Source: Cyanobacterium sp. T60_A2020_053 (lineage in GTDB: Bacteria > Cyanobacteriota > Cyanobacteriia > Cyanobacteriales > Cyanobacteriaceae). Taken from it: a DNA stretch of 37,980 nucleotides. Under the pieces are notes generated by a model. It was given only the letters and a program-made list of their open reading frames with translations. It ran no database searches and had not been told where the DNA came from. Shown one piece after another: positions 7,301 through 37,088 of this stretch (position 1 is the stretch's first letter; each line of letters starts with the position of its first letter). The stretch lies in contig JACYMF010000042.1 in the NCBI GenBank assembly GCA_015272165.1, forward strand, positions 1-37,980, written 5' to 3'. Both the position numbers and the translations under genes were made by a program.

Positions 7301-7981
7301 GGTAATAACAATACCATTAAGGCTGGAATCAATAGCTTTTTCTAATAATTCTAAACTTTTATTTTTTTCTAAAGAGTAGGTAAAAATAGAAATTATATGT
7401 TTTATAAATTCAATTTTTAAATTATCAAAAAAATCATCTTCACTAATATAAAAGCTAAAAATTCCCCAAGGAGTAGAATAATTAACGTTATTTTCTTTTT
7501 CAACTAATAAATTAATAGTATTTTCTGTTAAAAATGGAGAATTTTTATCAAAACTAATATTTTTAATCCGTTGTGTAATATTCTCTGGGCTAATCTTTAT
7601 TTGCGAGTATTCTATAGGAATATCATTAATTTGGTGATCTTGTATTCCTTGATGATATTTAAAATAGAATTGATTAAGACTAGGATTAAATTGCCAAAAT
7701 TTAGCTTCACAAATTCCTAGCGTTTGACAAATTACCTCTATAATTTTTTCTTCTATTTCTTGCCCATCAGACTGTTTTTCTAAGTTATTGAAAATAGCCC
7801 TTTGATAAATTTTTATGGCTTCTAAATTTTGCTTTTCTTCCCGCTGTGATAGCAGTTGATAAGATTTTAAGTCTAACTGATGTTTTAAAATGAGATTTTT
7901 ATCTCTTACTTTTTTTAAAAAATAAATTAATAAAATATTAGTAATTACTACAAAGAGACTAAATAACCAAAAAATTGTCAT
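4310..7981 (-). CDS. LOV/GAF/PAS/GGDEF/EAL c-di-GMP signalling protein
   Basis: 1223 residues. An N-terminal membrane helix (4-22) is followed by a weak GAF-like region (about 60-205) and a LOV-type PAS domain (about 211-328). GKNCSFLQ puts the flavin-adduct Cys at 259, and NYRKNGELFW and NPIYNQKGDLTHFIGVQNDI match LOV strands. Then come a GAF (about 365-500), two PAS domains (about 520-640 and 650-770), GGDEF (about 780-955; signature SGDEF 861-865) and EAL (about 970-1220). In the EAL domain EALVR (Glu1002), NVSSKQ, EITES, DDFGTG (1124-1129), KIDRAF and EGIET are all kept, so the phosphodiesterase site looks intact. SGDEF is a tolerated variant of the cyclase signature. I infer a blue-light-responsive c-di-GMP enzyme at the membrane; I recall Synechocystis Slr0359 as similar. 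Start ATG at 7981; apparently single-gene. Confidence 0.9.
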   Translation of the reverse strand: MTIFWLFSLFVVITNILLIYFLKKVRDKNLILKHQLDLKSYQLLSQREEKQNLEAIKIYQRAIFNNLEKQSDGQEIEEKIIEVICQTLGICEAKFWQFNPSLNQFYFKYHQGIQDHQINDIPIEYSQIKISPENITQRIKNISFDKNSPFLTENTINLLVEKENNVNYSTPWGIFSFYISEDDFFDNLKIEFIKHIISIFTYSLEKNKSLELLEKAIDSSLNGIVITDSSQAHNPVIYVNKGFEIITGYTKEETLGKNCSFLQNNEHQQNGVKKLRKAIQSGNKCRTVVKNYRKNGELFWNEIYINPIYNQKGDLTHFIGVQNDITKKYNLEQALSKKTKQLANFSKKLKAVNELKENLEEDLKNNLNYYLKNACHILNMQIGIIVEVSTSQFEIVSQYCTFNNDLFFDQQYCLINILSQEVTKRQETIYDESTSSFSLLSSQNISQNLSITSYLATPIWLSEEIYGTIHLFSVEKTDHYLIYQKHLIEAIALNISRTILAQEKELEKEHINIALVENQERLNDILSSLEDVIWSIHPQTLQLMYINNAAKVLYECELSFFFQKRCFWLDLVHSEQQENVKALYSNILSISLFDEMLNNHDLEYKIILPNGKEKYVRDRAYVIYNEQKKVIRIDGIITDISKQKEIQKALVQSEEELRLIFDSAPIGMMITDQNGIIKRVNNSVCQLLNYSFTDLINQNQENFYHPDDIEKNKLLVREILNSSQGKYSQERRYLASNGTVIYTIVDVSILRNNQGQTVQLIQQIIDISQVKNMEEQILLDRLYDKLTGLPNRFLFLERLEKTLTKCNKSSNKLCAVLLIDIDNFQKINDSLGHNIGDDLLIIIADKIISCLEEKDTLARISGDEFAVLLDDLTSYEQGEIIAQNIITACNTNHLLDNNYFASSVTIGVTFSSVNYENKEEILIASLGYQKPEEMLRDADLTMNQAKKAGKNCYQIFKPIMYKQLLDKLKLESQLRKALSDGILELYYQPIINLKTNNIAGFEALVRWFHPDLGFISPVKFIPIAEENGLIIPLGDWILNTAAHQAHLWHQKYPDLNLFIAVNVSSKQLLDEHFLDKVDSILNKSEVNPLNLKLEITESILMDNFNVAKNLLDKIQARDLKISLDDFGTGYSSLSYLHRLPFNTLKIDRAFITPLNNTNDRHAIVEAIVALAHNLSLDVVAEGIETTTQETILKRIGCDFGQGYLYSKPVDATGAGNLINLFHI

Positions 7982-8397
7982 AGACCTTGAAAATGCTTGT
8001 TATCGGTAATTACCCATCATCGTTGTAATTACTTGTTTCCTTTATCTTATCAAAGTAGTGAACTTTCTCATGATGAAAAGATATTTTAGATCATTTGATA
8101 GTTTTATTAGCCTAAATTTATAGCTAAAGTTATTTGGGGTGTGATAAAAAATATTTGGTGAAGCTAACTGTAGGTAAAACAGAAGAGAAAAGAGTCTAAA
8201 ATAACTATATATAAAAGATTTTAGCTTATTGACTATTGTTGATCAACTGTCAAGTTGCATGAATTTTTTTTGATGTAATAAGCAAAAATTAAATTTTCTA
8301 TTAAAAACAACTTATCAATTTTCATCGTATTGATTAGAATAACTTTTCTTTTAATTATTAAATTATAGTTAAAAAACTTAACGAAAGTTAATACTTC
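7982..8397. other. Intergenic region, no gene seen
   Basis: About 415 AT-rich bases between divergent genes. I find no open frame of more than 20 codons, no RNA gene and no repeat shared with the other families here. Promoters for both neighbours should lie here, but none is convincing by eye. Confidence 0.5.
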
Positions 8398-8637
8398 TTG
8401 ACAAAATATACTAGAATAGAGTCAAATTCATATTTTTTAGAAATGTTAATCCCTATTCTCGTCTTTGATGTAGCATTAGTGGCATGGTCATTACACTTAA
8501 TGCAACAAGCCTTTAATCAAAGAGAATTTTCATTAATGTTAGCCGGTAGTTTGGTAGCGTTATCGGCGGCAGCGATGTTGGTGGTTTATTTCTTAGTGGA
8601 AAATTGTCTGACTTCTCTTACTAATACTTTAGTATAG
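8398..8637 (+). CDS. Small two-helix membrane protein, unknown function
   Basis: 79 residues if translation starts at TTG 8398; an ATG at 8443 would remove 15 residues. The sequence shows two hydrophobic segments (about 15-35, MLIPILVFDVALVAWSLHLM, and about 46-67, LMLAGSLVALSAAAMLVVYF) joined by a short polar loop with QREFS. The longer form has a short polar N-terminus with TRIESNSYF. I think it is a conserved cyanobacterial membrane protein because of its regular helical-hairpin pattern, but I do not recognise a named family. No neighbouring gene gives it context: the region downstream is full of transposon relics. Confidence 0.6.
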   Translation: MTKYTRIESNSYFLEMLIPILVFDVALVAWSLHLMQQAFNQREFSLMLAGSLVALSAAAMLVVYFLVENCLTSLTNTLV

Positions 8638-8880: not shown

Positions 8881-9034
8881 TGACCGTTAATTAGAGTTAT
8901 TGCAAAATAAAGGGAAAAAAATCTGAAAACTTTACTGTATATAGATTTGATTGATCTTGATATAAGAACAGCTGTAAGTCCTATGTTAAGAAGTTTTCGA
9001 CTATTTTAGGACATTATTTCACAACAAGTCTAAT

Positions 9035-9160
9035 CTTTTTGAAATCATACTGTTTTTCTTTTAAATCATTGAATATTTTTTGTACTAGATTCAAATTTGA
9101 TGCCACAAAAAATAGATGCAGAGATGTGTTACCCAATACTTATCAAATTATCTAACTTGT
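9035..9160 (-). pseudogene. Decayed MerR-family (cvkR-like) gene fragment outside the CAST
   Basis: Minus-strand DNA here aligns with the middle of the intact cvkR at 16990-17415. The frame reads NLNLVQKIFNDLKEKQYDF against LNLEMAQKILNDLRQKEPDF of CvkR, and the DNA shares AAATCATTGA and ATTTTTTGTnC. Upstream the match continues (AGTATnGGnTAA) in a shifted frame, so the gene is broken. There is no start, HTH or C-terminus. Its position just outside the left transposon end suggests the remains of an earlier CAST or an old rearrangement. Confidence 0.65.
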
Positions 9161-9216
9161 TAAGACGATATTGATTCGTTGATGACCACAAATAGTATAT
9201 TACTGCATAGTTAATG

Positions 9217-9454
9217 TGTACAGTAACACATTAAATGACATGGTAACAAATTAGTGTCATTTAAAATAAAGACTTCTGTAGCCCTTGTACAGTAAACATT
9301 ATACTTAATATTATCCTAAAATCACGCTTAATTACTTCTGACATTAAATTAACAAATTAAGTGTCGTTTTCCAAGAAAATCACAAATTATGTGTCGCCTT
9401 CTGATTAGGCGATTTTTTTGTTGTAAAAGTGGGCATTAACAAATTATGTGTCAT
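9217..9454 (+). repeat. CAST left end with multiple TnsB-type binding repeats
   Basis: Repeats of the form ACAAATTA-(T/A)GTGTC occur at 9243-9260, 9351-9366, 9381-9398 and 9438-9454. TGTACAGTAA occurs at the terminus (9217) and again at 9286. Arrays of this kind (AAATTAnnTGTC) are the TnsB sites of V-K left ends. The last site overlaps a TATAAT at 9454-9459 upstream of tnsB, which would allow TnsB to repress its own gene; that regulation is inferred. Confidence 0.8.
9395..9418 (+). terminator. Rho-independent terminator within the CAST left end
   Basis: TCGCCT (9395-9400) and AGGCGA (9407-9412) form a perfect 6-bp stem around a 6-nt loop, followed by a run of Ts. It faces the tnsB direction and lies upstream of the gene. 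It would stop chromosomal read-through into the transposition genes. Confidence 0.65.
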
Positions 9455-9495
9455 ATAATAAGTATTAATCTACTATGTAGCTATAAAACAGTTAT

Positions 9496-11164
9496 GTGAA
9501 ACTTATTGCTATGGATGATCAATTTTCCGATGCACCCGAATTAATTACCCGACTTTCACCTGAAGAACAAAAAATTGCTGATGTCATTGAAGATTTACTT
9601 GAACCTTGCGATCGCAAAGCCTACGGAGAAAAGTTGAAACAGGCATCCATATCTTTGAATAAGTCAGTTCGCACTATCCAAAGATATGTCAAACAATGGG
9701 AAAAAGATGGTTTGCATGGCATCCCCCAAAATCGTCGAGCAGACAAGGGATCTTACAGAATTGATGAGCGATTACAAGACTTTATTATCAAGACCTACAG
9801 AGAGGGTAATAAAGGTAGTAAAAGAGTTACCGCCAAACAAGTTTATCTACGAGCAGTTTTTCAAGCTGAAAATTGGGGTACTAAACCACCTTCCCACATG
9901 ACGGTTTATCGTATTCTCAATCCAATTATTGCTGAAAAAGACAATAAGAAGAGGGTTAGAAGTCCGGGGTGGAGAGGTACAAGGTTAGCTGTATCCACCA
10001 GAGCAGGGACAGATATTGATGTGGAGTATAGTAATCATGTTTGGCAATGTGACCATACCCGAGCTGATATTCTTCTCGTAGATCAATTTGGTCAATTATT
10101 GGGCAGACCTTGGTTAACCACAGTAATAGATACTTATTCTCGCTGTATTATGGGTATTAATCTTGGTTTTGATGCTCCTAAGTTCCCAAGTGCTTGCTTT
10201 GGCTCTACGTCACGCTATTTTGCCCAAAAGTTATAGTTCTGATTATGGACTACACGAGGATTGGGGAACTTATGGTAAGCCTGAGTATTTTTACACTGAT
10301 GGCGGTAAAGATTTTCGTTCTAATCATCTCCAACAAATTAGTTTACAGCTAGGTTTTACTTGTCATTTACGCAGTCGCCCTAGTGAGGGTGGTGTGGTAG
10401 AACGTCCTTTTAAAACCTTGAACACGGAGGTATTTTCTACCTTACCCGGATATACAGGTGGTAATGTCCAAGAGCGTCCAGAGGATGCGGAAAAGGAAGC
10501 CTGTTTAACGTTGAAAGACTTGGAGAAACTGATTGTCCGCTACATTGTGGATAACTACAATCAACGTCTTGATGCTCGTATGGGAGAACAAACTCGTTTT
10601 ATGCGTTGGGAAGCTGGATTACTTTCTGTGCCACATATTCTTTCTGAACGGGAGTTGGATATTTGTTTAATGAAACAGTCACGAAGAAGGGTACAAAAGG
10701 GTGGTCATCTCCAATTTGAAAATCTGATTTACAAGGGGGAATATTTGGGAGGTTATGAAGGAGAAACGATTATAATTCGTTATGACCCTAAGGATGTTAC
10801 GGGTATTTTAGTATATCGTCGTGAAAATAATAAAGAGGTTTTTCTGACTCGTGCCTATGCTGTGGACTTGGAAAGTGAGTCTTTATCTTTGATAGATACG
10901 AAGGCTAGTGCTAAAAGAGTAAGAGACGCTGGAAAAAGTTTGAGTAATCGTAGCGTTTTGATGGAAGTAGAGGAACGCTCGAATTTTACGACTAGGAAAA
11001 CAAGAAAACAACGACAGAAGGAAGAGCAAGAACGAGTCAAGCCCTCCATACCTTCCCCTGTCTTGAAAAAAACGGAACTAGAAGATGAGCCTTCTACTTT
11101 TTCTGATGATGATTGGGTGGAGGTTATTGATTATCAACAATTACAAGAAGATTTTGATTTTTAG
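9496..11164 (+). pseudogene. tnsB: TnsB transposase, interrupted by a +1 frameshift
   Basis: TnsB is the DDE integrase that binds transposon ends and joins strands. The first frame (GTG 9496, or ATG 9511, to 10236) carries the helix-turn-helix region (SISLNKSVRTIQRYVKQW), the first catalytic Asp186 (CDHTRADILLVD) and GINLGFDAP. The family sequence then continues in the next frame as SSQVLALALRHAILP, with the second Asp (FYTDGGKDF) and the Glu (RPSEGGVVERPF). One extra A in CCTAAGTTCC at 10180-10181 explains the break; without it the protein is about 555 residues, slightly shorter than known V-K TnsB. No stops occur elsewhere, so the break is recent, a sequencing error, or a +1 shift at CCT-A. 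A GGAG near the tnsB stop serves tnsC, 9 bp on. Confidence 0.88.
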
Positions 11165-11173
11165 GAGTTACTA

Positions 11174-12001
11174 ATGAAAGCGGAGAATGTAGCAGAACAA
11201 TTAGGTAACATTGATGTCCCTGAAGCAGATCTACAAAAGGAGATTAAAAGACTTGAAAGTAAAACAGTAGTTGGTTTAGAGCAGGTTGCGATTCTCCATG
11301 ATTGGTTGGAAAGTAAGCGTCAATCGAAGCAGTCTTGTCGAGTAGTGGGGGAATCTCGCACGGGGAAAACTATTGCTTGTAATTCTTATCGTTTAAGACA
11401 TAAGCCAACTCAAGAGAAGGGGAAACCTCCTCAAGTTCCAGTAATTTATTTACAAGTACCCCAAGAGTGTGGGGCAAAGGATTTATTTCGAGGAATCATA
11501 GAACATTTGAAGTATCAAATGACTAAGGGAACTGTGGCTGAAATCAGAAAAAGGACGATGACAGTATTGCAAGGATGTGGTGTAGAAATGATTATTTTTG
11601 ATGAGGCAGATCGTTGTAAGCCAAAAACTTTTGCGGAGATTAGGGATATTTTTGATCATCTCAATATTGCGATTGTCCTTGTGGGAACGGATCGTTTGGA
11701 TGCGGTAATCAAGAAGGATGAGCAGGTTTACAATCGTTTTCGTGCTTGTTATCGGTTTGGTAAGTTAGGGGGAGAAGAATTTAGTCGTACTGTCAATATT
11801 TGGGAGAAACAGGTTTTGAAGTTACCTGTGGCGTCCAATTTAACGAGTAAAAGAATGTTGAAGTTGATTGGGGAAGCAACTCAGGGTTATGTCGGTATTA
11901 TGGATATGGTTTTGCGTGATGCGGCGATTCGTTCTCTCAAGAAAGGACTTAACAAGATTGATTATGACACTTTAAAGGAAGTTGTACAGGAGTATAAATG
12001 A
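11174..12001 (+). CDS. tnsC: TnsC, AAA+ transposition regulator
   Basis: 275 residues, nearly the same as characterised V-K TnsC. It is an AAA+ ATPase that polymerises on target DNA and links Cas12k-TniQ to TnsB. Walker A is GESRTGKT (59-66) and Walker B is MIIFDEAD (139-146). Sensor-type text VLVGTDRLD follows at about residue 170, with the C-terminal LIGEATQGYVGIMD helices after it. An AGGAG overlapping the end of tnsB serves as ribosome site for the ATG at 11174. The stop overlaps the tniQ start by 4 bp (ATGA), so tnsB, tnsC and tniQ form one operon. Unlike tnsB, this frame is intact. Confidence 0.95.
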   Translation: MKAENVAEQLGNIDVPEADLQKEIKRLESKTVVGLEQVAILHDWLESKRQSKQSCRVVGESRTGKTIACNSYRLRHKPTQEKGKPPQVPVIYLQVPQECGAKDLFRGIIEHLKYQMTKGTVAEIRKRTMTVLQGCGVEMIIFDEADRCKPKTFAEIRDIFDHLNIAIVLVGTDRLDAVIKKDEQVYNRFRACYRFGKLGGEEFSRTVNIWEKQVLKLPVASNLTSKRMLKLIGEATQGYVGIMDMVLRDAAIRSLKKGLNKIDYDTLKEVVQEYK

Positions 12002-12468
12002 TGGAAATTCAGCCTTGGTGGTTTACGATCTCACCTTATGAGGATGAAAGTATCAGTCATTTTTTGGGAAGGTTTAGAAGGGAAAATACACTTACTGTCT
12101 CTGGTTTGGGTGAAATAACTGGTTTATATAGTGCGATCGCCCGTTGGGAAAAGTTTCGTTTTAATCCTTCTCCTTCCCTTGAGCAATTGGAGAAGTTGAG
12201 TGCAATCGTACAAGTGGACGTAGCAACCCTACAAAAAATGTGTCCTTCTGCACCCATGAAAATGAGTCCTATTCGTCTTTGTTCGGCTTGTTATGTTGAG
12301 AACCCTTACCATCGCATGAAATGGCAGTATAAGGAGATTTATAAGTGCGATCGGCATCAATTAAAACTTTTATCAGAATGCCCCCATTGTGGTGCTAGGT
12401 TTAAGATTCCTAGTCTATGGGTAAATGGTTGGTGTCACAGGTGTTTTACTCATTTTGGGGAGATGTAA
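11998..12468 (+). CDS. tniQ: TniQ, short V-K type target-selection protein
   Basis: 156 residues, matching the short TniQ of V-K elements rather than the long TnsD/TniQ of classic Tn7. TniQ bridges the Cas12k R-loop and the TnsC filament. It opens with the characteristic WWFTISPYEDESISHFLGRF and then has zinc-knuckle ligands: Cys95/Cys98 (CSAC), Cys117/His120 (CDRH), Cys128/Cys131 (CPHC) and Cys146/Cys149 (CHRC). It is translationally coupled to tnsC through a 4-bp overlap. Its stop is only 8 bp from the stop of the convergent nurA gene, so the two transcripts probably overlap. Confidence 0.94.
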   Translation: MMEIQPWWFTISPYEDESISHFLGRFRRENTLTVSGLGEITGLYSAIARWEKFRFNPSPSLEQLEKLSAIVQVDVATLQKMCPSAPMKMSPIRLCSACYVENPYHRMKWQYKEIYKCDRHQLKLLSECPHCGARFKIPSLWVNGWCHRCFTHFGEM

Positions 12469-12476
12469 ATAAATAA

Positions 12477-13829
12477 CTAGCCAGAAGAGTTTCTGGCAAA
12501 TTTTGCAAGAATACTTTGACTAGGGTGAGCGGAAAGACTTACTAATTTATTAACTAAAGCGACAGGGAATAAAGCGGAATCATACATATCACAATGTAAT
12601 TTTTCTACATTATTAAGTATTATTTGTAAATTAGGTAAATCGTTAATAGTTGGATTTTTCTTAAGTTCTCTGACGGGAACTGCAACAACATACATTTGTC
12701 CATTTCTCGTTTTAAAAATTACTTTATGTCCATAATAGCTAGTATTAGCATAAAGATGATCAGAGTCACTTGTCCTTGGTGAAATGTAACGGTAAATATA
12801 ATCATCGCTTGGAATTAACACTTTTCCACGTTCTAATTTGTTTTGTATATCTTGAGCATGATCAACAAAAGCCCCACTTTTTTCCAATCCCGTTAACAAA
12901 ATATTATGTTCATCTAAAAGCCAATTTACTAAATCTTGCATTGGATCATGAAGTCTAGCAGGTTGCCCAAAAAAGCCAGTTGAACCATCTTTAATAAATA
13001 AAACTTTTTTTAGCATTTCTGGCTTTTTATTACACAGTATTCTAATAATATGTATGATGATTAAATGTTCAATTACATTAACTAAATAACCTAAAATTCC
13101 TCCTGCACCTGTTTCTTCGTCAATAACTTCATGAAGTCTAAATATATCAGTTAAGTAAATTTTTCCACCAGTTTCAGGACAGTTAAAAGTATAATCTCGA
13201 TTCATTTGTTCTTCTAATAAACGAACTTGATTACGGTCTGAACTTAATGGATTAGTTGCTAAATTATAAGATTTCTCTTTTTCAGTTCTTTTTCCTTGTT
13301 TATATCTCCGAAAAACAAACCAAGCCAAAGTATCTATTAAACTTTTATCTTCATCTAAATTACTTTTTTTAAAAAACTCATAGATTGCCTTTAATACAGT
13401 TTCTTTTAAAGTATTAGTATCTTTAAAACATAGATTACGAGTAGGTAAAGCTAATTTTAAACGTTGAATATTTTTTAATTTAGCCATATCTTTAGGATCA
13501 ATAAAAGCTGATGAGTCTATTTCAGCTAGATCATCTAATTTGAAAAATAATGCTCCAAACTGTAAAAAATGGATACTTTGAGAAGGAAAATCTTTATTTA
13601 AAACTACTTCCGTATAACCGCCATCCACAGCAATAATAGACTCGACAGGATTATTTTCTGATGGTTTAAAATCTTCAATTAATTGTTCCATAGAAACTTC
13701 ATCAACTTGAGGACGTTGTTCTATTCTTTGCATTACTGCTTGAACTTCAGGGTCATTGATAATATGATGATGCGAAGCTTTACTGGCACTTTCAAAAGGA
13801 CGACGGTTATTTTTACTTGTATATCCCAT
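12477..13829 (-). CDS. NurA-domain nuclease (CAST cargo)
   Basis: 450 residues. NurA is an RNase H-like 5'-3' nuclease that works with the HerA hexameric translocase in archaeal end resection and in several bacterial defence modules. Visible family motifs are IIAVDGGY with Asp69, VLFIKDGSTGFF with Asp281, the SYYGHKVIFKT strand and a C-terminal CDMYDSALFPVALVNKLV helix. The N-terminal 60 residues are polar and probably flexible. It is the last gene of a minus-strand group, 26 bp after herA and probably co-transcribed with it. The frame is intact. The assignment comes from motif order plus the adjacent HerA; a search should return NurA (DUF/NurA domain) as top family. Confidence 0.82.
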   Translation of the reverse strand: MGYTSKNNRRPFESASKASHHHIINDPEVQAVMQRIEQRPQVDEVSMEQLIEDFKPSENNPVESIIAVDGGYTEVVLNKDFPSQSIHFLQFGALFFKLDDLAEIDSSAFIDPKDMAKLKNIQRLKLALPTRNLCFKDTNTLKETVLKAIYEFFKKSNLDEDKSLIDTLAWFVFRRYKQGKRTEKEKSYNLATNPLSSDRNQVRLLEEQMNRDYTFNCPETGGKIYLTDIFRLHEVIDEETGAGGILGYLVNVIEHLIIIHIIRILCNKKPEMLKKVLFIKDGSTGFFGQPARLHDPMQDLVNWLLDEHNILLTGLEKSGAFVDHAQDIQNKLERGKVLIPSDDYIYRYISPRTSDSDHLYANTSYYGHKVIFKTRNGQMYVVAVPVRELKKNPTINDLPNLQIILNNVEKLHCDMYDSALFPVALVNKLVSLSAHPSQSILAKFARNSSG

Positions 13830-13855
13830 AGTTTTAAACCTTATTTATACTAAAT

Positions 13856-15949
13856 TTAGTTTTCAGGAGGAAAGCGATCAATTTGAACAGGAATAACAAA
13901 AGAGTTGCTGTAAGTTTTCATACGAACAAAACCTTTATCTGTATCTTGACTAAAACGAATTAAACTTTCTGTAAAATCGCTAAAATCATAATATTTCCTC
14001 AATTCCTTAATTTCATCCTCATTGTTTAAATGAGAAATAAACCAGTTTTGAGTTGCTTTTAGAATATTACTACTAATAGAACTTACTTCTTGAGTAGCAT
14101 AGATTAAACCAAGATTTAATTTAGCGCCTTCCTTAGCTAATCTATTGTAAATTTGGGATAAATCTTTATCATCTTTTTTAGGAAAAAGGTTATGTGCTTC
14201 TTCAAAGTAAAATTGAATAAAATTATTAGGACGGGTATCTACAAACCTTCTAATTGAATCTTGAAAAATTTTACGAGTTATTTTTTCAGTAAATAATTTT
14301 TGAATTTTCTCTTCTCCTAACGATAAATCAACTATAACAATTTTACCAGCCCTCAAATGCCATAAAATATCTTGGTCATAAGGAGTTTGTATAGTAGAAG
14401 TATGTTGATTCCGAATAGAGGTTAAGACTTTATAGCCATTATGAGAATAAATTTGTTTTCCTGTTTTAGTTTGACCAGTTAACATTGCCAATAAAGCTTT
14501 CAGATCATCATCTGCCCATTCTTTTAAATCTTCATCTGATAAATTTTGATTAGATTGTATATCTTCTTGTTGAGTCTTCTTTTTCTTTCCTAATTCTGGT
14601 GTATAGACTTTCCAAAAAGTTTCCCACCAAATTGATGCTTGTTCTAAAGAAAGTTCCAGTGTTCCAGTAGGTTTATTATTACCTTGGGGTTCTATTGGAC
14701 TGTCAAGTTCTTGATTAACTGCTTCTCTAATTTCTTTATTGGAAGTAAACTTAACTTTGAAATTGCTGGGAGATGGAAATCCAGCACGATGAAGACAACA
14801 AAGATAAACAGCTATATGACGATCATAACGTTTAGCTTCAGAACTAAATCGCTCATCTTTATAATTATCTGGTTGGTTTAAATTAACAGCGATAAAACTA
14901 TTAGTAAATCGACGGTTTTCGTTAGCGATATATTCTCTAATAAGTTCAAATCCTTCTTCTATTTCAGAATAAAAATTAACTTTTAGCTGTTTAAAGCCTT
15001 CTTTTTCAATTGTTGAATATCTAACTGTTTGTTCTTGATATAAATCAAAAATTGCCGTACCTTGATCTTGAAGATTAGGATTAGCATATTCTCCATTAAT
15101 ATCAAAAATAATTTGTCCAATCGGATACTTAGGATTATTATTTTCTGTTAACGGTTTAAGAACTTCTTCAGAAGTTTCTCTACTTTTATCTAGTTCAAGA
15201 GGTGCATTTTCACTCATCTCAACACAAGACTGAATAATTTTTTTAACTGTATTAGATTTTCCAGTTCTCGTCATACCAAAAAGAGCCGTTCTTTTTCCTG
15301 CAAAATCAGGAGCTTGAACATATACAGTGACTTCTTCTTCTTGTTGCTGAAAACGGCGACTAGAACTGTAGCGAACTTTTCCAATTTTTATATCTCCAGA
15401 ACCTCCTGGTGTTCCATTTTCTCTGTAATTAACAATACCCTTTAAAATTTCTGCTGAAGGTTTGATAACTGAGTAATTATGAGCACTATAAAAATTTTCT
15501 AAATCAGCACCAAAACGAGTTTTTCCATTGTCATCAATGTAAAAAGAACCTAATATCGAACATTCTAGCCCACTAAAAGAAAACTCATAACGAGTAAAAG
15601 TATCTAGCTGAGTTTTTTTAGTTTCTCCCGTTTGAATATCATCTTTGTAGTATTCAACCATGCTACTAACAACCTGTTGATCTGTTGGTAATCTTGTTGG
15701 TTGAATAACTCTTAGTAATACTGCTTCACGGTCATTTTTTTTATCAAGTTCATTATCATAATAAGCTAATAAAAAACATCCTTGGGGTATTCCTTTGGCT
15801 TTTTGTTTCCAAGCATCAGCTATTAAAATTTCAGCTTTTGTGTAACTGAGTCGGAAAGGACGACCAACAAATATACCTGTTTCCCAGTCATCGGTTGAAT
15901 TATTGCGTTTAAAAAGATTAATCTTAATTAAGTCATCAGTAATTCCCAT
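13856..15949 (-). CDS. HerA-type DNA translocase ATPase (CAST cargo)
   Basis: Hexameric FtsK/HerA-superfamily ATPase (DUF87/HAS-barrel type) that would drive the partner nuclease NurA along DNA. I place the start at ATG 15949, which has GGAG 10 nt upstream and gives 697 residues. A TTG at 15967 would add six residues and almost abut the methyltransferase. From the ATG, the N-terminal barrel (about 1-200) is followed by Walker A GMTRTGKS (about 225-232), a long insertion rich in charged residues, Walker B QFYFEEAHNLF, and the Arg-containing RLAKEGAKLNLGLIYATQ. It is the middle gene of the methyltransferase-herA-nurA set with gaps of 20 bp and 26 bp. Bacterial HerA genes next to nuclease genes are typical of defence islands; the role here is inferred. 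Confidence 0.88.
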   Translation of the reverse strand: MGITDDLIKINLFKRNNSTDDWETGIFVGRPFRLSYTKAEILIADAWKQKAKGIPQGCFLLAYYDNELDKKNDREAVLLRVIQPTRLPTDQQVVSSMVEYYKDDIQTGETKKTQLDTFTRYEFSFSGLECSILGSFYIDDNGKTRFGADLENFYSAHNYSVIKPSAEILKGIVNYRENGTPGGSGDIKIGKVRYSSSRRFQQQEEEVTVYVQAPDFAGKRTALFGMTRTGKSNTVKKIIQSCVEMSENAPLELDKSRETSEEVLKPLTENNNPKYPIGQIIFDINGEYANPNLQDQGTAIFDLYQEQTVRYSTIEKEGFKQLKVNFYSEIEEGFELIREYIANENRRFTNSFIAVNLNQPDNYKDERFSSEAKRYDRHIAVYLCCLHRAGFPSPSNFKVKFTSNKEIREAVNQELDSPIEPQGNNKPTGTLELSLEQASIWWETFWKVYTPELGKKKKTQQEDIQSNQNLSDEDLKEWADDDLKALLAMLTGQTKTGKQIYSHNGYKVLTSIRNQHTSTIQTPYDQDILWHLRAGKIVIVDLSLGEEKIQKLFTEKITRKIFQDSIRRFVDTRPNNFIQFYFEEAHNLFPKKDDKDLSQIYNRLAKEGAKLNLGLIYATQEVSSISSNILKATQNWFISHLNNEDEIKELRKYYDFSDFTESLIRFSQDTDKGFVRMKTYSNSFVIPVQIDRFPPEN

Positions 15950-15969
15950 TTTTGCAAATCTCCACAATT

Positions 15970-16941
15970 TTATTTAGATGTTTGTGTTGTTTTTAAAGCA
16001 GGATCTTCAAAACGAATTTTTGACTGCTCAACATATTTTTTTTCTGCATCGATCGCTAGCCATTTGCGATCTAATCTAGCAGCTGCATATCCAGTTGTAT
16101 TACTTCCAGCAAAGGGATCTAAAACCCAATCACCGGGGTCAGTTAAAAACTCGATAAAAAAAGCTGGTAATCCCATTGGCATTCGTGCTGGATGAGGAGT
16201 AATGTTTCTTTCTTTACAGGTTTTTGCAAAAAAATCTCTGGAGTTACTATTTGAAAACGAAAAAGCATTTGGTAAACGTACTTTACGATTAGAATCCATT
16301 GCTTCCAATTCCATTAGATTATGAGCAATTGAGCCACCACAATCTTTTAAAAAACTTGTTTCGCCAATTTTATGTTCAGAAGGTCTTTTTCCTGAATTAT
16401 AGTTCCCTGTTTTCAACAGATATTTCATACGATCACTATAAGGACGCAAAACCTTTGAATTATCTGCTTTCGGTTTATCCGTTTTAGCCATCCACCATAG
16501 ACGAGTATAACTATCAACGGTTCTAATCCGTTCAACCGTTACCCAATTAGCTGGAGACGGTAAGCGAGAAGGGTTATAACAGACAAATTCTTGAATAAGA
16601 CGCAAATTAGCATCAGGATAAGAAACGAAACTCATTAAAGATTGTAATGGCAACAAAGATTGAACTGGGCGTTGTGATTCCCAACTGTTACCTAATTCAA
16701 TAACTATAGAACCATCTTCTGTCAACATTTCTGAAAAAAGTGGAGCTAAATCACTAAACCATTGCAAATATTCATTACCAAGCATATTGCCATAGCTTTT
16801 TTTACTATTCAATGGAAAAGGAGGAGATGTAAAAATCAACTGTATTTTTCCTTTTAATTTTCCGAAGGATTTACTATTTAGGACGGTTTCCGCTTTTCCA
16901 AGGTAATAACGTCCAGTTTTTTTCTTTTGAACAATTGTCAC
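15970..16941 (-). CDS. Beta-class DNA methyltransferase, probably N4-cytosine (CAST cargo)
   Basis: 323 residues. The catalytic motif TSPPF (38-42) precedes the S-adenosylmethionine motif DPFAGSNTTG (275-284), the order of beta-class enzymes. S-P-P-(F/Y) rather than D/N-P-P-Y points to N4-cytosine methylation, and TSPPFPLNSKKSYGN resembles what I recall of M.PvuII (TSPPFALQRKKEYGN). The middle part (about 120-260) is probably the target recognition domain. No restriction enzyme of the usual PD-(D/E)XK kind is beside it; instead the next two genes are herA and nurA, which could provide the restricting activity on unmethylated DNA. It lies 48 bp downstream of cvkR in the same direction. Confidence 0.88.
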   Translation of the reverse strand: MTIVQKKKTGRYYLGKAETVLNSKSFGKLKGKIQLIFTSPPFPLNSKKSYGNMLGNEYLQWFSDLAPLFSEMLTEDGSIVIELGNSWESQRPVQSLLPLQSLMSFVSYPDANLRLIQEFVCYNPSRLPSPANWVTVERIRTVDSYTRLWWMAKTDKPKADNSKVLRPYSDRMKYLLKTGNYNSGKRPSEHKIGETSFLKDCGGSIAHNLMELEAMDSNRKVRLPNAFSFSNSNSRDFFAKTCKERNITPHPARMPMGLPAFFIEFLTDPGDWVLDPFAGSNTTGYAAARLDRKWLAIDAEKKYVEQSKIRFEDPALKTTQTSK

Positions 16942-16989
16942 AAAGTTTTAATTTTAAAATATTATCTAACATATCCTATACATTCTATT

Positions 16990-17415
16990 CTAATAAAGGT
17001 AGTATTCTTGAATATTTTGATGAATCTGATCAATCCACAAAGGAACGATCGCCCTGCCCTCCTCAAAAAGTGCGATCGCACTTTCTCGTTCATAAGACAA
17101 TAAATTAACATTACCATCACTAGCAACCACCATAAAACGCTTTTGAAAACCCTTCTTAGTAAAATCAGGTTCTTTTTGTCTCAAATCATTGAGGATTTTT
17201 TGTGCCATCTCCAGATTTAGACCCACAGAAAGGAGATATACCATTACCGATACTTCCACCAACTCTACAAAAGAATAATAAATCGTCTTTCCTGTACCCG
17301 AAGCATTAATAAAAGGCACGACAACCTCCTTATCCCTCCAATACTGCAATTGTCGGAGGGAACACCCCGTAATCCTTGATATATCTTTGCTACTAAAAAA
17401 TACTTCCTGTTTCAT
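16990..17415 (-). CDS. cvkR: CvkR, MerR-type regulator of the V-K CAST
   Basis: 141 residues. The N-terminal winged helix-turn-helix reads SSKDISRITGCSLRQLQYWR (residues 7-26), diagnostic of the MerR family. A helical segment LNLEMAQKILNDLRQK and a C-terminal domain of about 50 residues lack the metal-binding Cys of classic MerR. In V-K elements a MerR-type protein divergent from cas12k represses cas12k and the tracr locus (described in Anabaena as CvkR). Position, size and orientation match here. It starts 64 bp from cas12k with a shared regulatory region between them. The cargo operon follows 48 bp downstream on the same strand, so it may also be the first gene of that transcript. A degraded relative is at 9035-9160. 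Confidence 0.88.
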   Translation of the reverse strand: MKQEVFFSSKDISRITGCSLRQLQYWRDKEVVVPFINASGTGKTIYYSFVELVEVSVMVYLLSVGLNLEMAQKILNDLRQKEPDFTKKGFQKRFMVVASDGNVNLLSYERESAIALFEEGRAIVPLWIDQIHQNIQEYYLY

Positions 17416-17422
17416 AGCAACA

Positions 17423-17460
17423 ATTATAAAATGATTTGTTTTTATACAAATATGTTTTAT
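17423..17460. promoter_or_regulatory. Shared cvkR/cas12k promoter region with inverted repeat
   Basis: ATTTGT (17434-17439) and ACAAAT (17446-17451) form an inverted repeat with a 6-bp spacer. On the minus strand TATAAT (plus 17423-17428) is a good -10 for cvkR, with TTGTAT 15 bp upstream of it. The palindrome overlaps this promoter and lies about 30 bp before the cas12k ATG. It is therefore a reasonable CvkR operator (inference). Confidence 0.5.
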
Positions 17461-17479
17461 TAAACAGCAATGTTAAATT

Positions 17480-19363
17480 ATGAGTCAAATTACTATTCAA
17501 TGTCGTTTGGTTGCTTCTACTGATACCCGCCAATTTCTCTGGATGTTGATGAGTCAAAAAAACACCCCTTTAATTAACGAAATCCTCATGAAGATAGCAG
17601 AACATCCTGATTTTTCCGTTTGGAAAGAGACGGGGAAGCTACCAAAAAATTTTCTAGCACAACAAATTGCCAAACTCAAAAAAGATCCTCGTTTTCAAGG
17701 GCAACCATCTCGTTTCTATGCCTCTGTTTATAAAATGATTGACTATGTTTATAAGTCTTGGTTCAAAATACGAGGTAAAAATAAATTGAGACTTCAGGGC
17801 AATACTCGTTGGTTAGAGATGTTAAAGCCAGATAGCGAAATTCTCCAATATTTTGATGATTCATTGGAAAAGTTACAAAATCAAGCCAGAAAAATTCTTG
17901 ATGAGATTGATAGTAACCTGACTCAAAAGCGTATTATTGATCATTTATTTCAGAAATATGAGCAAGTAAAAGACCCTAATATTCAGGGTGCGATCGTTTA
18001 TCTAATTAAAAATGGTGCTAGTATCCCAGAGAATAAAGTAGAAACCGAAAAGAAATACGAGAAACTCAAAAGAAAAGCAGAGATTCAAGTTAATAAATTA
18101 AAAAAACAAGTAGAAATTTCTGTTCCTAGTGGCAGAGAATTAGATGATCAAAAGTGGTTAGACACTCTCATTCTTGCTTCTACTACTATGCCACTTAATC
18201 AAACTCAGTGCGATCAGTGGTTTTCTGTCCTTAAACAAAATCCTCCTTCTGTTCCCTATCCCATTATTTATCAAACTAATGAGGATTTAAGATGGAGCAT
18301 AAACGAGAAAAATCGTCTATGTGTCCAATTTAGTGGTTTGGGGGGTCATATTTTCAAAATCTATTGTGATTCTCGTCAACTTAGTTATTTTAGACGTTTC
18401 TACGAAGATCAAGAGTTAAAGAAAAGTAACAAAGATAAGTTTTCTAGTGGATTATTTACTTTAAGATCTATTCTAATTCTATGGAAAGAAGATAAGACGA
18501 GTAAAAGTAAAGATGAGCCGTGGCACACAAATAGGTTATATCTTCACTGTACCCTAGAAACCGATTGTTGGACTACCGAAGGAACACAGATAATAGCCCA
18601 CAAAAAGCAAGAAGAAACCCTTAAAATCATTAATGGAATGAAGAAAAAAGATGATTTAACAGACACGCAAAAATCCTTTCTTAAACGTAAACAGAGCACC
18701 GTAAATCTACTCAATAATATTTATCCTCGCCCTAGCAAACCTATTTATCAAGGTAATCCAGACCTCTATTTGGGAGTAGCTATGGGTTTACAAGATCCTG
18801 TTACCATTGCTTTAGTGGATGTTAGTCAAGAAAAAGTTATCCTATATCGCAACATCAAACAATTATTAGGTGATAACTATCATCTACTTAGGAGGAGAAG
18901 GAATGAAAAACAGAAATTGAGCCACCAAAATCATAAGGCAAAGAAAAAGGCTAATTTCAAACAAAAAGGGGAATCTAATTTGGGGGAATATATTGACTGC
19001 CTTATTGCTAAATCTATTCTCGAAATAGCTCAAGAATATAAAGTTTCAACAATTGTCATTCCTCGATTTAGCCAGATGAGGTCAATTACTGAAGCAGAAA
19101 TACAAGTAAGAGCAGAGGAGCGAATACCTGAGTATAAGGAAGGGCAAAAAAAATATGCCAAAGATTACCGTGTACAAGTCCATCAGTGGAGCTATGGTCG
19201 ATTGATTAATGACATTAAGGCTAATTCCGCCAAGGTAGGTATTGTCGTAGAAGAGGGCAAACAGCTTAAAGAGGGAACATTTACTGATAAAGCAGTACAG
19301 TTAGCTTTAAGTCTCCAACAGAATATTACTGAAGGTAAAATTCCCCGAAACACAAAATCTTGA
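17480..19363 (+). CDS. cas12k: Cas12k, nuclease-dead RNA-guided targeting protein
   Basis: 627 residues, full length compared with characterised Cas12k (about 640). It opens with MSQITIQCRLVASTDTRQFL and has an alpha-helical recognition half up to about residue 410. A degenerate RuvC domain follows: the first motif, where nucleases have LGIDxG, reads LGVAMG (431-436), so the catalytic Asp is lost as expected for this family. Later RuvC parts are IVIPRFSQMRSITEAEIQ and YRVQVHQWSYGRLINDI. In known systems it binds a tracrRNA-crRNA pair and recruits TniQ/TnsC to a site downstream of a GTN PAM. It is divergent from cvkR. After the stop only 67 bp remain to the transposon end, leaving no space for the usual tracrRNA and CRISPR array. 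Confidence 0.96.
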   Translation: MSQITIQCRLVASTDTRQFLWMLMSQKNTPLINEILMKIAEHPDFSVWKETGKLPKNFLAQQIAKLKKDPRFQGQPSRFYASVYKMIDYVYKSWFKIRGKNKLRLQGNTRWLEMLKPDSEILQYFDDSLEKLQNQARKILDEIDSNLTQKRIIDHLFQKYEQVKDPNIQGAIVYLIKNGASIPENKVETEKKYEKLKRKAEIQVNKLKKQVEISVPSGRELDDQKWLDTLILASTTMPLNQTQCDQWFSVLKQNPPSVPYPIIYQTNEDLRWSINEKNRLCVQFSGLGGHIFKIYCDSRQLSYFRRFYEDQELKKSNKDKFSSGLFTLRSILILWKEDKTSKSKDEPWHTNRLYLHCTLETDCWTTEGTQIIAHKKQEETLKIINGMKKKDDLTDTQKSFLKRKQSTVNLLNNIYPRPSKPIYQGNPDLYLGVAMGLQDPVTIALVDVSQEKVILYRNIKQLLGDNYHLLRRRRNEKQKLSHQNHKAKKKANFKQKGESNLGEYIDCLIAKSILEIAQEYKVSTIVIPRFSQMRSITEAEIQVRAEERIPEYKEGQKKYAKDYRVQVHQWSYGRLINDIKANSAKVGIVVEEGKQLKEGTFTDKAVQLALSLQQNITEGKIPRNTKS

Positions 19364-19375
19364 GCTAAAATGAAT

Positions 19376-19430
19376 CAAATCGTGCCGTAAATCAAGTTGT
19401 TATCGACCTCTGTTAATTTGTTAATGTACA
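19376..19430 (+). repeat. CAST right end (short)
   Basis: The terminal motif TTAATTTGTTAATGTACA (19413-19430) mirrors the left end. A second, weaker TnsB-like site (CGTAAATCAAGTTGTTATCGAC) lies at about 19386-19407. Known V-K right ends carry more sites and follow a CRISPR array; here only about 55 bp follow cas12k. The outside flank is ACTTT. Confidence 0.7.
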
Positions 19431-19459
19431 ACTTTGTAAAGAACGTCACTAGCAAAATA

Positions 19460-19533
19460 CGGGACTGACGGGACTCGAACCCGCGACACCCTGCGTGACA
19501 GGCAGGTACTCTAACCAGCTGAGCTACAGTCCC
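19460..19533 (-). tRNA. trnD: tRNA-Asp (GTC)
   Basis: Minus strand, 74 nt including the discriminator G. The acceptor arms are GGGACTG/CAGTCCC. The D-arm region is TAGCTCAGCTGGTTAGAGTA, the anticodon stem CCTGC/GCAGG surrounds loop CTGTCAC with anticodon GTC, and the T-arm is GCGGG-TTCGAGT-CCCGT. CCA is not encoded. The 3' end faces the CAST right end 29 bp away, so the transposon lies just downstream of the tRNA. Confidence 0.96.
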
Positions 19534-19689
19534 ATTTGATTAACATTATCTATGTTAACAAATTGCCTATAAATTTGTCAAGGTTAATTGTTGGTTATTT
19601 TTATTACTGCAATCGTAATTAGGTATAGACTATAATCACCCTCATAGAGATATTTCCCCATAGACAGGAGTTGAAAGCAAAAAAATTTG

Positions 19690-24900: not shown

Positions 24901-25123
24901 GATGATCTAACTTTACCAATTTTATTTATGATCGTCAACAAAAGGTTTCTTTACATTAAGCTAGTTTACTTGTGAAAGTAGGCAAAGGACATTCATAATT
25001 CATCATTCATAATTCATCATTTCCCAGCGCCCTCCACAAAAACCTTGCTAAATTTGACGTAAATCAGTATATCATTAGGAAGAAATTTAGAATCATTAAT
25101 AATTGGTGTTGAGGAGAGGCAAA

Positions 25124-29350: not shown

Positions 29351-29401
29351 TAATTCATAATTCATAATTCATAATTCATAATTCATAATTCATAATTCAT
29401 C
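29351..29401. repeat. Octamer tandem repeat (TTCATAAT)n
   Basis: Six head-to-tail copies of TTCATAAT. The array runs into the 3' end of the MoaC-MobA gene and supplies its last codons and stop. Confidence 0.85.
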
Positions 29402-30417
29402 ACTTGTTGATATTCTTCTGGAGTATTAATATTGGCAATGTCTGAAGGGCGCTGGGGGGAAATTAACTGACAATTACCCATCTGTAACACTTTGACGGGG
29501 CAATAAATTTGAGCCTTTTCTGCCCTAGTAAATAAATCCAGCGCCCGTGGCGTATAAATACCGCATAATGCTTCAGGAAAGCCTTTTTCCGTATTTTTAT
29601 AGCAAGTCGCCACCACATCTTGACGGTGATGATTAACTAAATTAGCGATGATGTCAGGTTGCAGATAAGCTAAATCACAGGCAACAATTAACCAATTAAC
29701 GTGAGGATTACTACGCAAAGCCGTGATAATGCCCGAAAAAGGTCCATGACTTTCTCCCTCATCAACTAAAGTAGGGAAAGAAGCCAAATTACTATTCTGC
29801 CATTGTTGTTGGCGCGCGGAAATAAATACCTTTTCGCAAAAATTACCCAAAAGATGATACAAAAACTCCCCATGGGGTTGATTGTGGTAGTCAATTAAGG
29901 CTTTATCCCGTTGCATCCTCTGACTTTTTCCCCCAGTCAACACTAAACCGTGAAGGGGGAGGGCGCTTTTTCCGCCCATTTTACTTAACAGTTGCGTATT
30001 TTTAATCACGATATTCGAGGATACCGACTTACACATATCATAAATGGTCAGCGCCGCCACCGACACCCCACATAGCGCCTCCATTTCTACCCCGGTTTTG
30101 TAAGTAGTTTTTACCTCACATTCAATGGTGACGCAAAGTTTTTCATCAATATTGATGGTGAATTTACAAGATTGCAGGGGTAAAGAGTGACAAAATGGGA
30201 TTAAATCCGCAGTTTTTTTCACCGCCATTGTACCAGCAATAATCGCTGTTTGTATCACTGGACCTTTTTTGAGGATTAAGTCTTCCCCCTGTAGATAAGG
30301 TTTCATTTCTACGGGTAATTGTACCTCGCCACGGGCGCTGGCTTGGCGATAAGTATTATCTTTATGGGAAATATCAACCATATTAGGTTGATTATTTGGA
30401 TCAAGATGAGTCAACAT
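29383..30417 (-). CDS. MoaC-MobA fusion, molybdenum cofactor biosynthesis
   Basis: 344 residues. Residues 1-150 are MoaC (MVDISHKD, AVKKTADLIPFCHSLPL, KTTYKTGVEMEALCGVSVA, LTIYDMCKS), which acts with MoaA to make cyclic pyranopterin monophosphate. Residues 155-344 are MobA (LVLTGGKSQRMQRDKALIDY nucleotide loop, VDEGESHGPFSGI, VACDLAYL), which attaches GMP to molybdopterin. The two act at the first and last stages of the pathway, so the fusion is not substrate channelling of adjacent steps. A PLHG linker joins them directly. The final residues MNYEL and the TGA stop are read from the TTCATAAT octamer array. No other moa/moe genes are in the window. Confidence 0.93.
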   Translation of the reverse strand: MLTHLDPNNQPNMVDISHKDNTYRQASARGEVQLPVEMKPYLQGEDLILKKGPVIQTAIIAGTMAVKKTADLIPFCHSLPLQSCKFTINIDEKLCVTIECEVKTTYKTGVEMEALCGVSVAALTIYDMCKSVSSNIVIKNTQLLSKMGGKSALPLHGLVLTGGKSQRMQRDKALIDYHNQPHGEFLYHLLGNFCEKVFISARQQQWQNSNLASFPTLVDEGESHGPFSGIITALRSNPHVNWLIVACDLAYLQPDIIANLVNHHRQDVVATCYKNTEKGFPEALCGIYTPRALDLFTRAEKAQIYCPVKVLQMGNCQLISPQRPSDIANINTPEEYQQVMNYEL

Positions 30418-31509: not shown

Positions 31510-31622
31510 AAGGGCAAAGGGCAAAGGTTTAAAAAGGGTAAAGTAAAAAGGGCAAAGGAAGTTATTATTTCATAATTCATAATTCATAATTCATAATTCA
31601 TAATTCATAATTCATAATTCAT
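31493..31622. repeat. GGGCAAA cluster followed by octamer array
   Basis: AAAGGGCAAAG units from 31495 to about 31560, then about six and a half copies of TTCATAAT (31568-31622). It separates convergent pheA and mrdA and reaches into the pheA 3' end. Confidence 0.85.
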
Positions 31623-31628
31623 CAACTC

Positions 31629-35606: not shown

Positions 35607-36233
35607 ATGTTTAAAAATCTTATTTCTATTACCTTACTTTCAACATTAAGCCTAAGCAGTTTCATCTTCGCTCCCTCCGCACAAGGGGAGACGAAAAATA
35701 ACTATCGCTGTATCATGAAACAAGGCTCACCCACCACGGTAGTAGATACCCGTAGAGGTAGAATTGATCTAATTGTCTGGAAAAGTAGTATTTTTCAGGG
35801 GTGGACTCCTTTAGAAAGATGTCAGGCTATTAGTAGTCGTTTTCAGAATTTTTCCGACCAAGGTAAATTACGATATGTAACCAATGGTAAATTAGAAGGT
35901 CAACCAGTGATTTGTGTGGCTGAAAATATACCGGGAAGAGGTTTAAGTTGTGAGAAAAATGGTCTATTACTGACTCTACAGCCCAGTGATAACCCTCAAA
36001 AAGTGATGGAGGAACTTTTTGACCTAAGCGCCCGTGTTCGTGGCGGTTCACCCCTCGTGAGAACAGGAGCGAATCAAGTGGTTTTAAATATCAATGATTT
36101 ATTAGCGGAAGCTGTGATAAATTCCGACGAAATTGGGCAGAATGAAAGTGAGATTCTTCCCACTCAACCATTAGAAACAGCACCTTCACAACTCCCTATA
36201 AATGACGCTCCCACGACAAATCCATCTAAGTAA
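35607..36233 (+). CDS. COP23-domain secreted protein, copy 1
   Basis: 208 residues. The signal peptide (about 1-27, ending SAQG) has a hydrophobic core LISITLLSTLSLSSFIFA. The mature domain YRCIMKQGSPTTVVDTRRG, WTPLERCQAISSRFQ, GQPVICVAE and GLSCEKNGLLLTL matches what I recall of COP23, first described as a circadian-oscillating 23-kDa protein of Cyanothece membranes. Four Cys (35, 72 and two near 105-120) are shared with the neighbouring copy and probably form two disulphides. Molecular function is unknown. The tail after about residue 170 is acidic and Pro/Thr-rich. A good GGGAG ribosome site precedes it; the second copy follows after 15 bp on the same strand. Confidence 0.87.
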   Translation: MFKNLISITLLSTLSLSSFIFAPSAQGETKNNYRCIMKQGSPTTVVDTRRGRIDLIVWKSSIFQGWTPLERCQAISSRFQNFSDQGKLRYVTNGKLEGQPVICVAENIPGRGLSCEKNGLLLTLQPSDNPQKVMEELFDLSARVRGGSPLVRTGANQVVLNINDLLAEAVINSDEIGQNESEILPTQPLETAPSQLPINDAPTTNPSK

Positions 36234-36248
36234 TCACATCTGAATATC

Positions 36249-37088
36249 ATGAAAAACAAACTATTTGCCTTAACCCTTGTTTCTACTTTCGGCATCAGCA
36301 ATACTTTTAACATTCCTACCGTGGAAGCCCAAACTAGAAATGTCTATCGTTGTGTCATGAAAAATGGCTCACCCACCACCGTCGTTGATACCAAAAGGGG
36401 CAGAATTGATTTAATTGTCTGGAAAAGTAATCTTTTTTCTGGCTGGTCTCCCCTCAAACGTTGTCAAGCCATTACCAGTAGATTTCAGGAATTTTCCGAC
36501 CAAGGAGCGCTACGTTACGTCACCACAGGTAATATAAATAATCAACCTGCCATTTGTGTAGCCCAAAATATACCGGGTCGTGGCATCAGTTGTCGTCGGA
36601 ATGGGCTATTAATCACCCTACAACCCAATGATAATCCCCAAAAGGTCATGAATGATCTTTTTGACCTCAGCGCCCGTGTTCGTGGCGGTTCACCCGTTAC
36701 CAGATCAGCAGAAGGTCAGAGCATTTTAGCCATCGATAAATTCTTAGAAGAAGTGGACGTGAGTGAGGAAATTCCTCCCGATAATTTAGAGGGCATGGGA
36801 AATAACCCGACAGAAAATCCAGCGCCCGTCCCCCCTCAATCATCCACCCCGAATAATAGCGTTATTACGAATAACAATTCAGCACCTCAAAATACCTCCT
36901 CTAACGTCACAGTGATCGAAGAGCCATCCTCATCACAACTTCCTACCGTAGAACAGAGTTCCATTAGTAATCCTATAGCAGATGGTTTACTTTTAACCCT
37001 TGAACCCAAAGATAACCCTCAAATGCAACAAATGTTTTCCTACCAGCGCGCTTCAACCCAACAAGTTGCTGTGGTCAGACAGAAGTAG
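36249..37088 (+). CDS. COP23-domain secreted protein, copy 2, with long Pro/Ser/Asn tail
   Basis: 279 residues, closely similar to the preceding gene across the signal peptide and COP23 domain (YRCVMKNGSPTTVVDTKRG, SDQGALRYVTTGN, SARVRGGSPVTRS), with all four Cys kept. It differs in a tail of about 110 residues rich in Pro, Ser, Asn and Thr, probably unfolded. Near the end this tail repeats a domain motif: GLLLTLEPKDNPQ echoes GLLITLQPNDNPQ. The two genes are 15 bp apart and surely arose by tandem duplication and are co-transcribed. A palindrome at 37188-37219 may terminate the pair. Confidence 0.87.
   Translation: MKNKLFALTLVSTFGISNTFNIPTVEAQTRNVYRCVMKNGSPTTVVDTKRGRIDLIVWKSNLFSGWSPLKRCQAITSRFQEFSDQGALRYVTTGNINNQPAICVAQNIPGRGISCRRNGLLITLQPNDNPQKVMNDLFDLSARVRGGSPVTRSAEGQSILAIDKFLEEVDVSEEIPPDNLEGMGNNPTENPAPVPPQSSTPNNSVITNNNSAPQNTSSNVTVIEEPSSSQLPTVEQSSISNPIADGLLLTLEPKDNPQMQQMFSYQRASTQQVAVVRQK

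Follow-up and report, generated by a model that had tools for sequence, protein, structure and literature searches.

The question raised by this locus is how a complete cas12k gene can stand in a transposon that has no room for the RNA that would guide its product. The stretch of DNA that we analyzed, called here the window, is 37,980 nucleotides long and is the entire contig C42 of the draft genome of Cyanobacterium sp. T60_A2020_053 (3.36 Mb in 118 contigs, 99.84% complete). The original prediction, made from the letters of the window, offered three readings of a full-length Cas12k without tracrRNA or CRISPR array: that the guide locus had been deleted and the element was a relic, that Cas12k uses guides encoded elsewhere, or that it has a guide-independent role. 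We consider it very probable that the window contains a CRISPR-associated transposon (CAST) of the V-K type that homed to a tRNA-Asp gene and was then broken, by a deletion of about 280 bp that removed the guide and by a frameshift in tnsB, which should have left the element immobile and its Cas12k idle.

The element spans positions 9217 to 19430, carries TGTACA at both ends, and is followed beyond its guide-side end by the tRNA-Asp gene on the opposite strand (Table 1). The features by which a V-K CAST is recognized are present in part: Cas12k, tnsC and tniQ of the V-K type, and a tRNA gene at the guide-side end with a GTN PAM were found, and an intact tnsB, a tracrRNA downstream of cas12k, and an array and/or a truncated repeat with a homing spacer were not. 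The full length predicted for Cas12k is borne out by its single open frame, although a PADLOC model labelled Cas12j scores slightly above the Cas12k model on the same product (2.9e-254 vs 1e-243). Among the matches listed in a class-wide search, this protein is 79% identical over residues 1-626 to two copies in genome G157, and Cas12k and TnsC each have one match in their own genome. The tnsB-side end is 77.6% identical to that of the related element L031 across 9213-9461, which is also where an 88% match to L035 begins. The cargo (12477-16941) is common to the window element and the element L033; it is possibly defense cargo, and its 450-aa protein had no match in Pfam or PADLOC. An Rfam scan of the window returned nothing besides the tRNA. 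Elsewhere in the window, the blocks 24991-25021, 29351-29405 and 31551-31624 match one another in 7-base steps, as heptamer-type repeats do, and a direct repeat (35696-36053 and 36338-36695, 76.5% over 358 bp) overlaps two neighboring ORFs.

Table 1. Positions of the transposon features and of the tRNA target in the window
Feature	Position	Strand	Evidence or remark
tnsB-side transposon end, starts TGTACAGTAACA	9217-9465	+	TGTACAG at 9217; several TnsB-type sites (by eye)
tnsB, split by 1-base insertion near 10180	9496-11164	+	ORFs 9496-10236 and 10163-11164; PADLOC TnsB_0_V-K on both halves
tnsC	11174-12001	+	PADLOC TnsC_0_V-K 1.2e-97; sole TnsC match in genome
tniQ	11998-12468	+	PADLOC TniQ_0_V-K 2.8e-63
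Cargo, three genes	12477-16941	-	HerA-type ATPase, N6/N4 DNA methyltransferase, 450-aa protein; Pfam and PADLOC
MerR-type regulator, position of cvkR, divergent from cas12k	16990-17415	-	Pfam MerR_1 4.3e-12
cas12k, intact single frame, 627 aa	17480-19363	+	PADLOC Cas12k 1e-243
tracrRNA gene promoter-side sequence, retained	19364-19381	+	Alignment to the L033 sequence preceding GTGCCG
tracrRNA stub, model positions 1-33	19382-19414	+	nhmmer E 4.8e-4; GTGCCG at 19382
Deletion junction, 1-base overlap	19414		L033 query 1-62 and 343-361 meet here
Guide-side transposon end, one TnsB-type site left (by eye)	19414-19430	+	TGTACA at 19425-19430
Putative anchor protospacer in tRNA-Asp, PAM GTT	19461-19477	-	47 bases between TGTACA and PAM
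tRNA-Asp(gtc), attachment gene	19459-19534	-	ARAGORN; Rfam tRNA

The space behind cas12k is as small as had been claimed: the stretch from 19364 through the last base of TGTACA at 19430 measures 67 bases, and the relatives whose right-end lengths we compared have several hundred bases or more from cas12k to the end. The claim that most of these bases are TnsB-site sequence was wrong, as the match to the terminal site of L033 is limited to 19414-19430. This element, from the same genus (G157) and with the same cargo, is 87% and 85% identical to that of the window over 5.1 and 4.5 kb, and it runs after cas12k into GTGCCGTAAATCAAG, the tracrRNA start, which the window has at 19382. Positions 19353-19414 are 94% identical to the cas12k end, the promoter side and the 5' part of the tracrRNA of L033, and 19414-19432 are 100% identical to positions 343-361 of the L033 query, with 17 bases inside the element and two outside. 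The two pieces are joined with a 1-base overlap, and the 280 bp missing in comparison with L033 (its positions 19022-19301) comprise the remainder of the guide RNA, its spacer against the tRNA and most of the TnsB sites of the guide-side end; by eye, the window retains one TnsB-type site on this side vs about four in L033. With nhmmer, a profile made from 13 copies of the tracrRNA at eight loci recognized only its model positions 1-33 within the window (E 4.8e-4), and a rebuilt profile reported nothing there at E ≤ 0.01.

The second lesion lies in tnsB. The open TnsB frame of L033, compared with the window by tblastn, matches in frame 1 for residues 20-209 and in frame 2 for residues 210-536, the alignment places one extra base near 10180, and its halves share 90% and 94% identity with TnsB of L033. 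This insertion may be a sequencing error. Taken with the loss of 280 bp, it points to a V-K CAST that was probably broken recently rather than to a guide-free Cas12k system; the first reading of the original prediction is thus the one that the deletion, the tracrRNA stub and the broken tnsB support.

What the missing segment probably contained can be read from the relatives, in which we found ten fused guide units, nine in the family of the window and one in genome G150. In such a unit, a short hairpin links the 3' end of the tracrRNA directly to a truncated repeat, whose sequence in the family of the window is GAGAATTGAAAG, and a 17-nt homing spacer follows. Five elements (L035, L037, L038, L031 and L039) have a first tracrRNA beside cas12k, then the array, then a second, fused tracrRNA, the array of L035 being broken by an inserted piece. 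By eye, that piece (L035 about 7675-8585, minus strand, in the second G157 element) resembles an insertion sequence lying inside a CRISPR repeat. L125 (G392) has its fused unit behind an array, and L033 and L041 have a single fused unit, with no array seen in these elements. Two further units, L132 (G157:C1:2216147-2216478) and L133 (G392:C1:3703093-3703435), consist of a fused guide and a transposon end with no adjoining cas12k. As guides without cas12k they are the mirror image of the window; in L133, judged by eye, the regulator gene and a few cas12k bases are still present.

The spacers of eight of the ten fused units match the tRNA side of their own flank with no or one mismatch and a PAM of GTT or GTG; the exceptions are L041, with 4 mismatches, and L035, which has no adjoining match (the best has 7 mismatches). 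Four of the five anchors with one mismatch (L033, L132, L133 and L038) share a T against a C at position 15 of 17. The seven family units that lie away from cas12k have TATAAT (six) or TATAGT (one) just upstream, and the units directly behind cas12k have TAGAAT (L033) and TACAAT (L041). In all five two-copy elements covered by computed duplex energies (a sixth, in G392 and recognized by DNA match, lay outside this comparison), pairing of the first tracrRNA with the array repeat, and of the second copy with the truncated repeat fused to it, came out ahead of the crossed pairs; for the second copy in L035 the margin was just 0.8 kcal/mol. In G150 the pairing of the hairpin is kept and its sequence is different. 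A Cas12k tree joins the three family rows in one clade (100/100) and does not resolve G150, so that a single origin of the fused guide that includes G150 does not follow from it. The fused unit looks like a natural single-guide RNA.

On balance, we lean toward regarding the window as a broken member of a V-K lineage that homes by such an RNA. In this lineage, the tracrRNA would have been duplicated, and one copy, under its own promoter, would be joined via a hairpin to a truncated repeat with a 17-nt spacer against a tRNA; divergence of anti-repeats and repeats would leave the array to be read by one tracrRNA and keep homing private to the fused one, and recombination between the copies would give array-free, homing-only elements such as L033 and L041.

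The tRNA-Asp gene beside the window element fits this picture of homing. The fused guide of L133 sits at a tRNA-Asp gene and agrees with 16 of the 17 bases at window positions 19461-19477, with the PAM GTT. The distance from the transposon end to the PAM is 47 bases in the window, and for the nine fused units whose protospacer was located it is 46-63, except for L031 with 114; the passages of Ziemann 2023 (PMC9938897) that treat this distance give 46-82 for V-K elements, with one exception of 147, and name the guide-side end the left end. The position of L133 and the fitting PAM distance together indicate that tRNA-Asp is an address used by the family of the window, and the missing guide probably recognized almost the same 17-base stretch as the guide of L133. 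The site also has an older history. Positions 9139-9205 align with a decayed guide-side CAST end with a score of 48 (the best of 200 base shuffles scored 24), and a piece of a MerR regulator gene aligns, in a comparison made without a shuffle control, with 9033-9117; 9033-9205 is probably the remnant of an older CAST directly to the left of the element, pushed away at homing to the same tRNA. No target-site duplications were seen by eye at the window element or at L033, L035, L037, L038 and L041, and because none were seen in the relatives either, this says nothing about rearrangement in the window.

The most serious alternative, itself a version of the broken CAST, concerns the extent of the deletion. 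The ancestor of the window element might have had the longer layout of L035, L037 and L038, with tracrRNA, array and fused guide, in which case the deletion was larger than 280 bp or ran into the end of a neighboring tandem element. Two full tracrRNA copies occur in five loci, one of which (L035) belongs to the same genus, and the relic of another CAST end in the left flank indicates that tandem elements existed at this site; nevertheless, the sister element that shares the cargo, L033, has the short layout, and we regard a longer ancestor as possible but rather unlikely. A far smaller chance is left to an assembly artefact, in which the guide locus is present in the organism and was collapsed. 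The evidence for the deletion and for the extra tnsB base comes from a draft assembly of 118 contigs, which gives this explanation its opening, but the two sides share a single base at the junction, so a misjoin driven by a repeat is unlikely, and no leftover guide or repeat was found on any contig of a genome that is 99.84% complete.

The search of the other contigs bears equally on the second reading, that Cas12k uses guides encoded elsewhere. The absence of a V-K direct repeat, noted for the window in the original prediction, extends to the rest of the draft genome, where the repeat pattern had 0 matches with up to 3 mismatches allowed; in control relatives the same pattern gave 5 matches in G351, 2 in G387, 8 in G392 and 0 in G157, which it misses and whose array is broken. 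An RNA model of the last 91 positions of the guide (R1) had no match in the own genome at E ≤ 5. This model matches 33 of the 388 genomes of the class, including both copies in G150, which were absent from its building, and it is not sensitive to all tracrRNAs, given that 96 of the 388 genomes have Cas12k matches. A DNA search of the own genome with the whole guide region of L033 returned the two junction pieces and five weak short matches. Of the latter, two on C15, one on C110 and one on C75 (E 0.05-0.6) were taken as chance, the one C15 match that we inspected having no TGTACA nearby, and the fifth lies near the other end of the window element. Covariance-type and sequence searches of the whole draft for a V-K tracrRNA or repeat, as the original prediction had suggested, thus gave none that is usable, within the element or elsewhere.

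That another element or replicon provides the guide in trans is therefore very improbable, as no guide, tracrRNA or repeat was found in the genome outside the stub. The fused guides without cas12k in L132 (G157) and L133 (G392) make such a supply conceivable in those genomes, and the fused guide of L037, used nearly whole (shifted by 10 bases and without the last 10 bases of the spacer), had no match in plasmid records, a result that says little about plasmids of the source strain.

The third reading assigns to Cas12k a role that needs no guide and that keeps the gene intact. The dN/dS of cas12k in comparison with L033 is 0.145, and the changes assigned to the window branch are 52 synonymous and 28 non-synonymous, compared with 38 and 18 for that of the sister; constraint on the window branch is not clearly looser than on the sister branch, and the gene shows no decay so far. 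These figures mostly reflect the time before the deletion; the lack of decay fits a recent break without proving it. A guide-independent role, to which the full frame and the low dN/dS across the whole divergence would correspond, is the least probable of the explanations: we found no new constraint specific to this branch and no other indicated function, nothing speaks for it positively although cas12k has not yet decayed, and a recent deletion accounts for the intact frame.

How unusual the locus is can be judged from 80 other Cas12k loci, hand-picked among the matches listed and mostly with long open frames (G145, G034, G359:C76, L034 and L122 were left out; L051, L059, L062, L031, L038 and L041 have stops or a broken cas12k, and some loci are cut by contig ends). 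A tracrRNA, counted when at least 150 of the 242 model positions were covered, is present in 75 of them, and the remaining five, whose Cas12k is distant (34-37% identity), have array-like repeats. The array test, a search of the first 2 kb for 14-mers recurring at intervals of 60-90, is crude; it was negative in the tracrRNA-bearing loci L072, L088, L104, L109, L115, L033, L035 and L041. Not one of the 80 lacks both tracrRNA and array-like repeats, as the window does, and the expectation that an intact cas12k without guides would be out of the ordinary is thereby upheld. A homing spacer with a match in the DNA beyond it, next to a GTN PAM and with no more than 3 mismatches (a threshold that admits some chance matches), was found in 61 of the 80 loci and not in the window. 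Damage of other kinds is frequent: in the family, 8 of 15 genomes have Cas12k matches, many of these are fragments or contain stops, and damaged elements are thus common in it. Considered alone, the window copy is a decayed member of the V-K CAST kind, and its decay is of an ordinary sort.

We therefore return to the broken CAST and to the course of events that its anatomy suggests. Before the deletion, to judge from its relatives, the element would have carried one fused RNA like that of its sister L033 and no array. With this guide, Cas12k, TniQ and TnsC would have placed the element some 50 bp past the PAM. A single deletion then took everything from about position 34 of the tracrRNA to the last TnsB site, probably recently and with little other damage. 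Cas12k now has no guide to bind, the transposase is broken, and the guide-side end is probably too short; from these three defects the element should be immobile and its Cas12k idle, and RNA-guided transposition is predicted to be absent.

The fused units of the relatives have a parallel in tracr-L, a natural single-guide RNA of Cas9 that represses cas genes. The same hairpin fusion of a tracrRNA to a guide-bearing repeat is seen in both; tracr-L represses cas genes, whereas the fused units match tRNA sites and would direct transposition. In titles and the opening parts of abstracts, we found no description of a fused homing guide, and prior publication is possible. As far as the consulted sections of PMC9938897 and PMC11406308 describe them, V-K CASTs of the AnCAST/ShCAST type resemble the window in tnsB-tnsC-tniQ, cargo, divergent MerR regulator and cas12k, and in a tRNA gene that points at the guide-side end with a GTN PAM 46-82 nt away. 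The window differs from them in that the guide locus and most guide-side TnsB sites are deleted and tnsB is out of frame, and its relatives differ in that the homing repeat-spacer is fused to a tracrRNA; in the same sections this repeat-spacer usually lies apart from the array. The portion of PMC11656645 on CAST variants describes some with a delocalized crRNA only and no array, and L033 and L041 likewise keep a homing guide without an array; the homing unit of those variants, as described there, is a crRNA, whereas in L033 and L041 tracrRNA and crRNA are in one unit. The V-K_V2 subgroup with alternative tracrRNAs (Ziemann 2025, as mentioned in PMC13383573) is alike in being a V-K CAST with tracrRNA variation, as far as the brief mention in PMC13383573 goes.

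The comparison that began with this broken element turns up what seems to be a natural version, in RNA-guided transposons, of the single-guide RNA used in the laboratory. If it is expressed, the fused unit would be a compact, ready-made homing guide, would suggest how V-K elements separate homing from array-guided jumps, and would show a route to array-free, homing-only elements.
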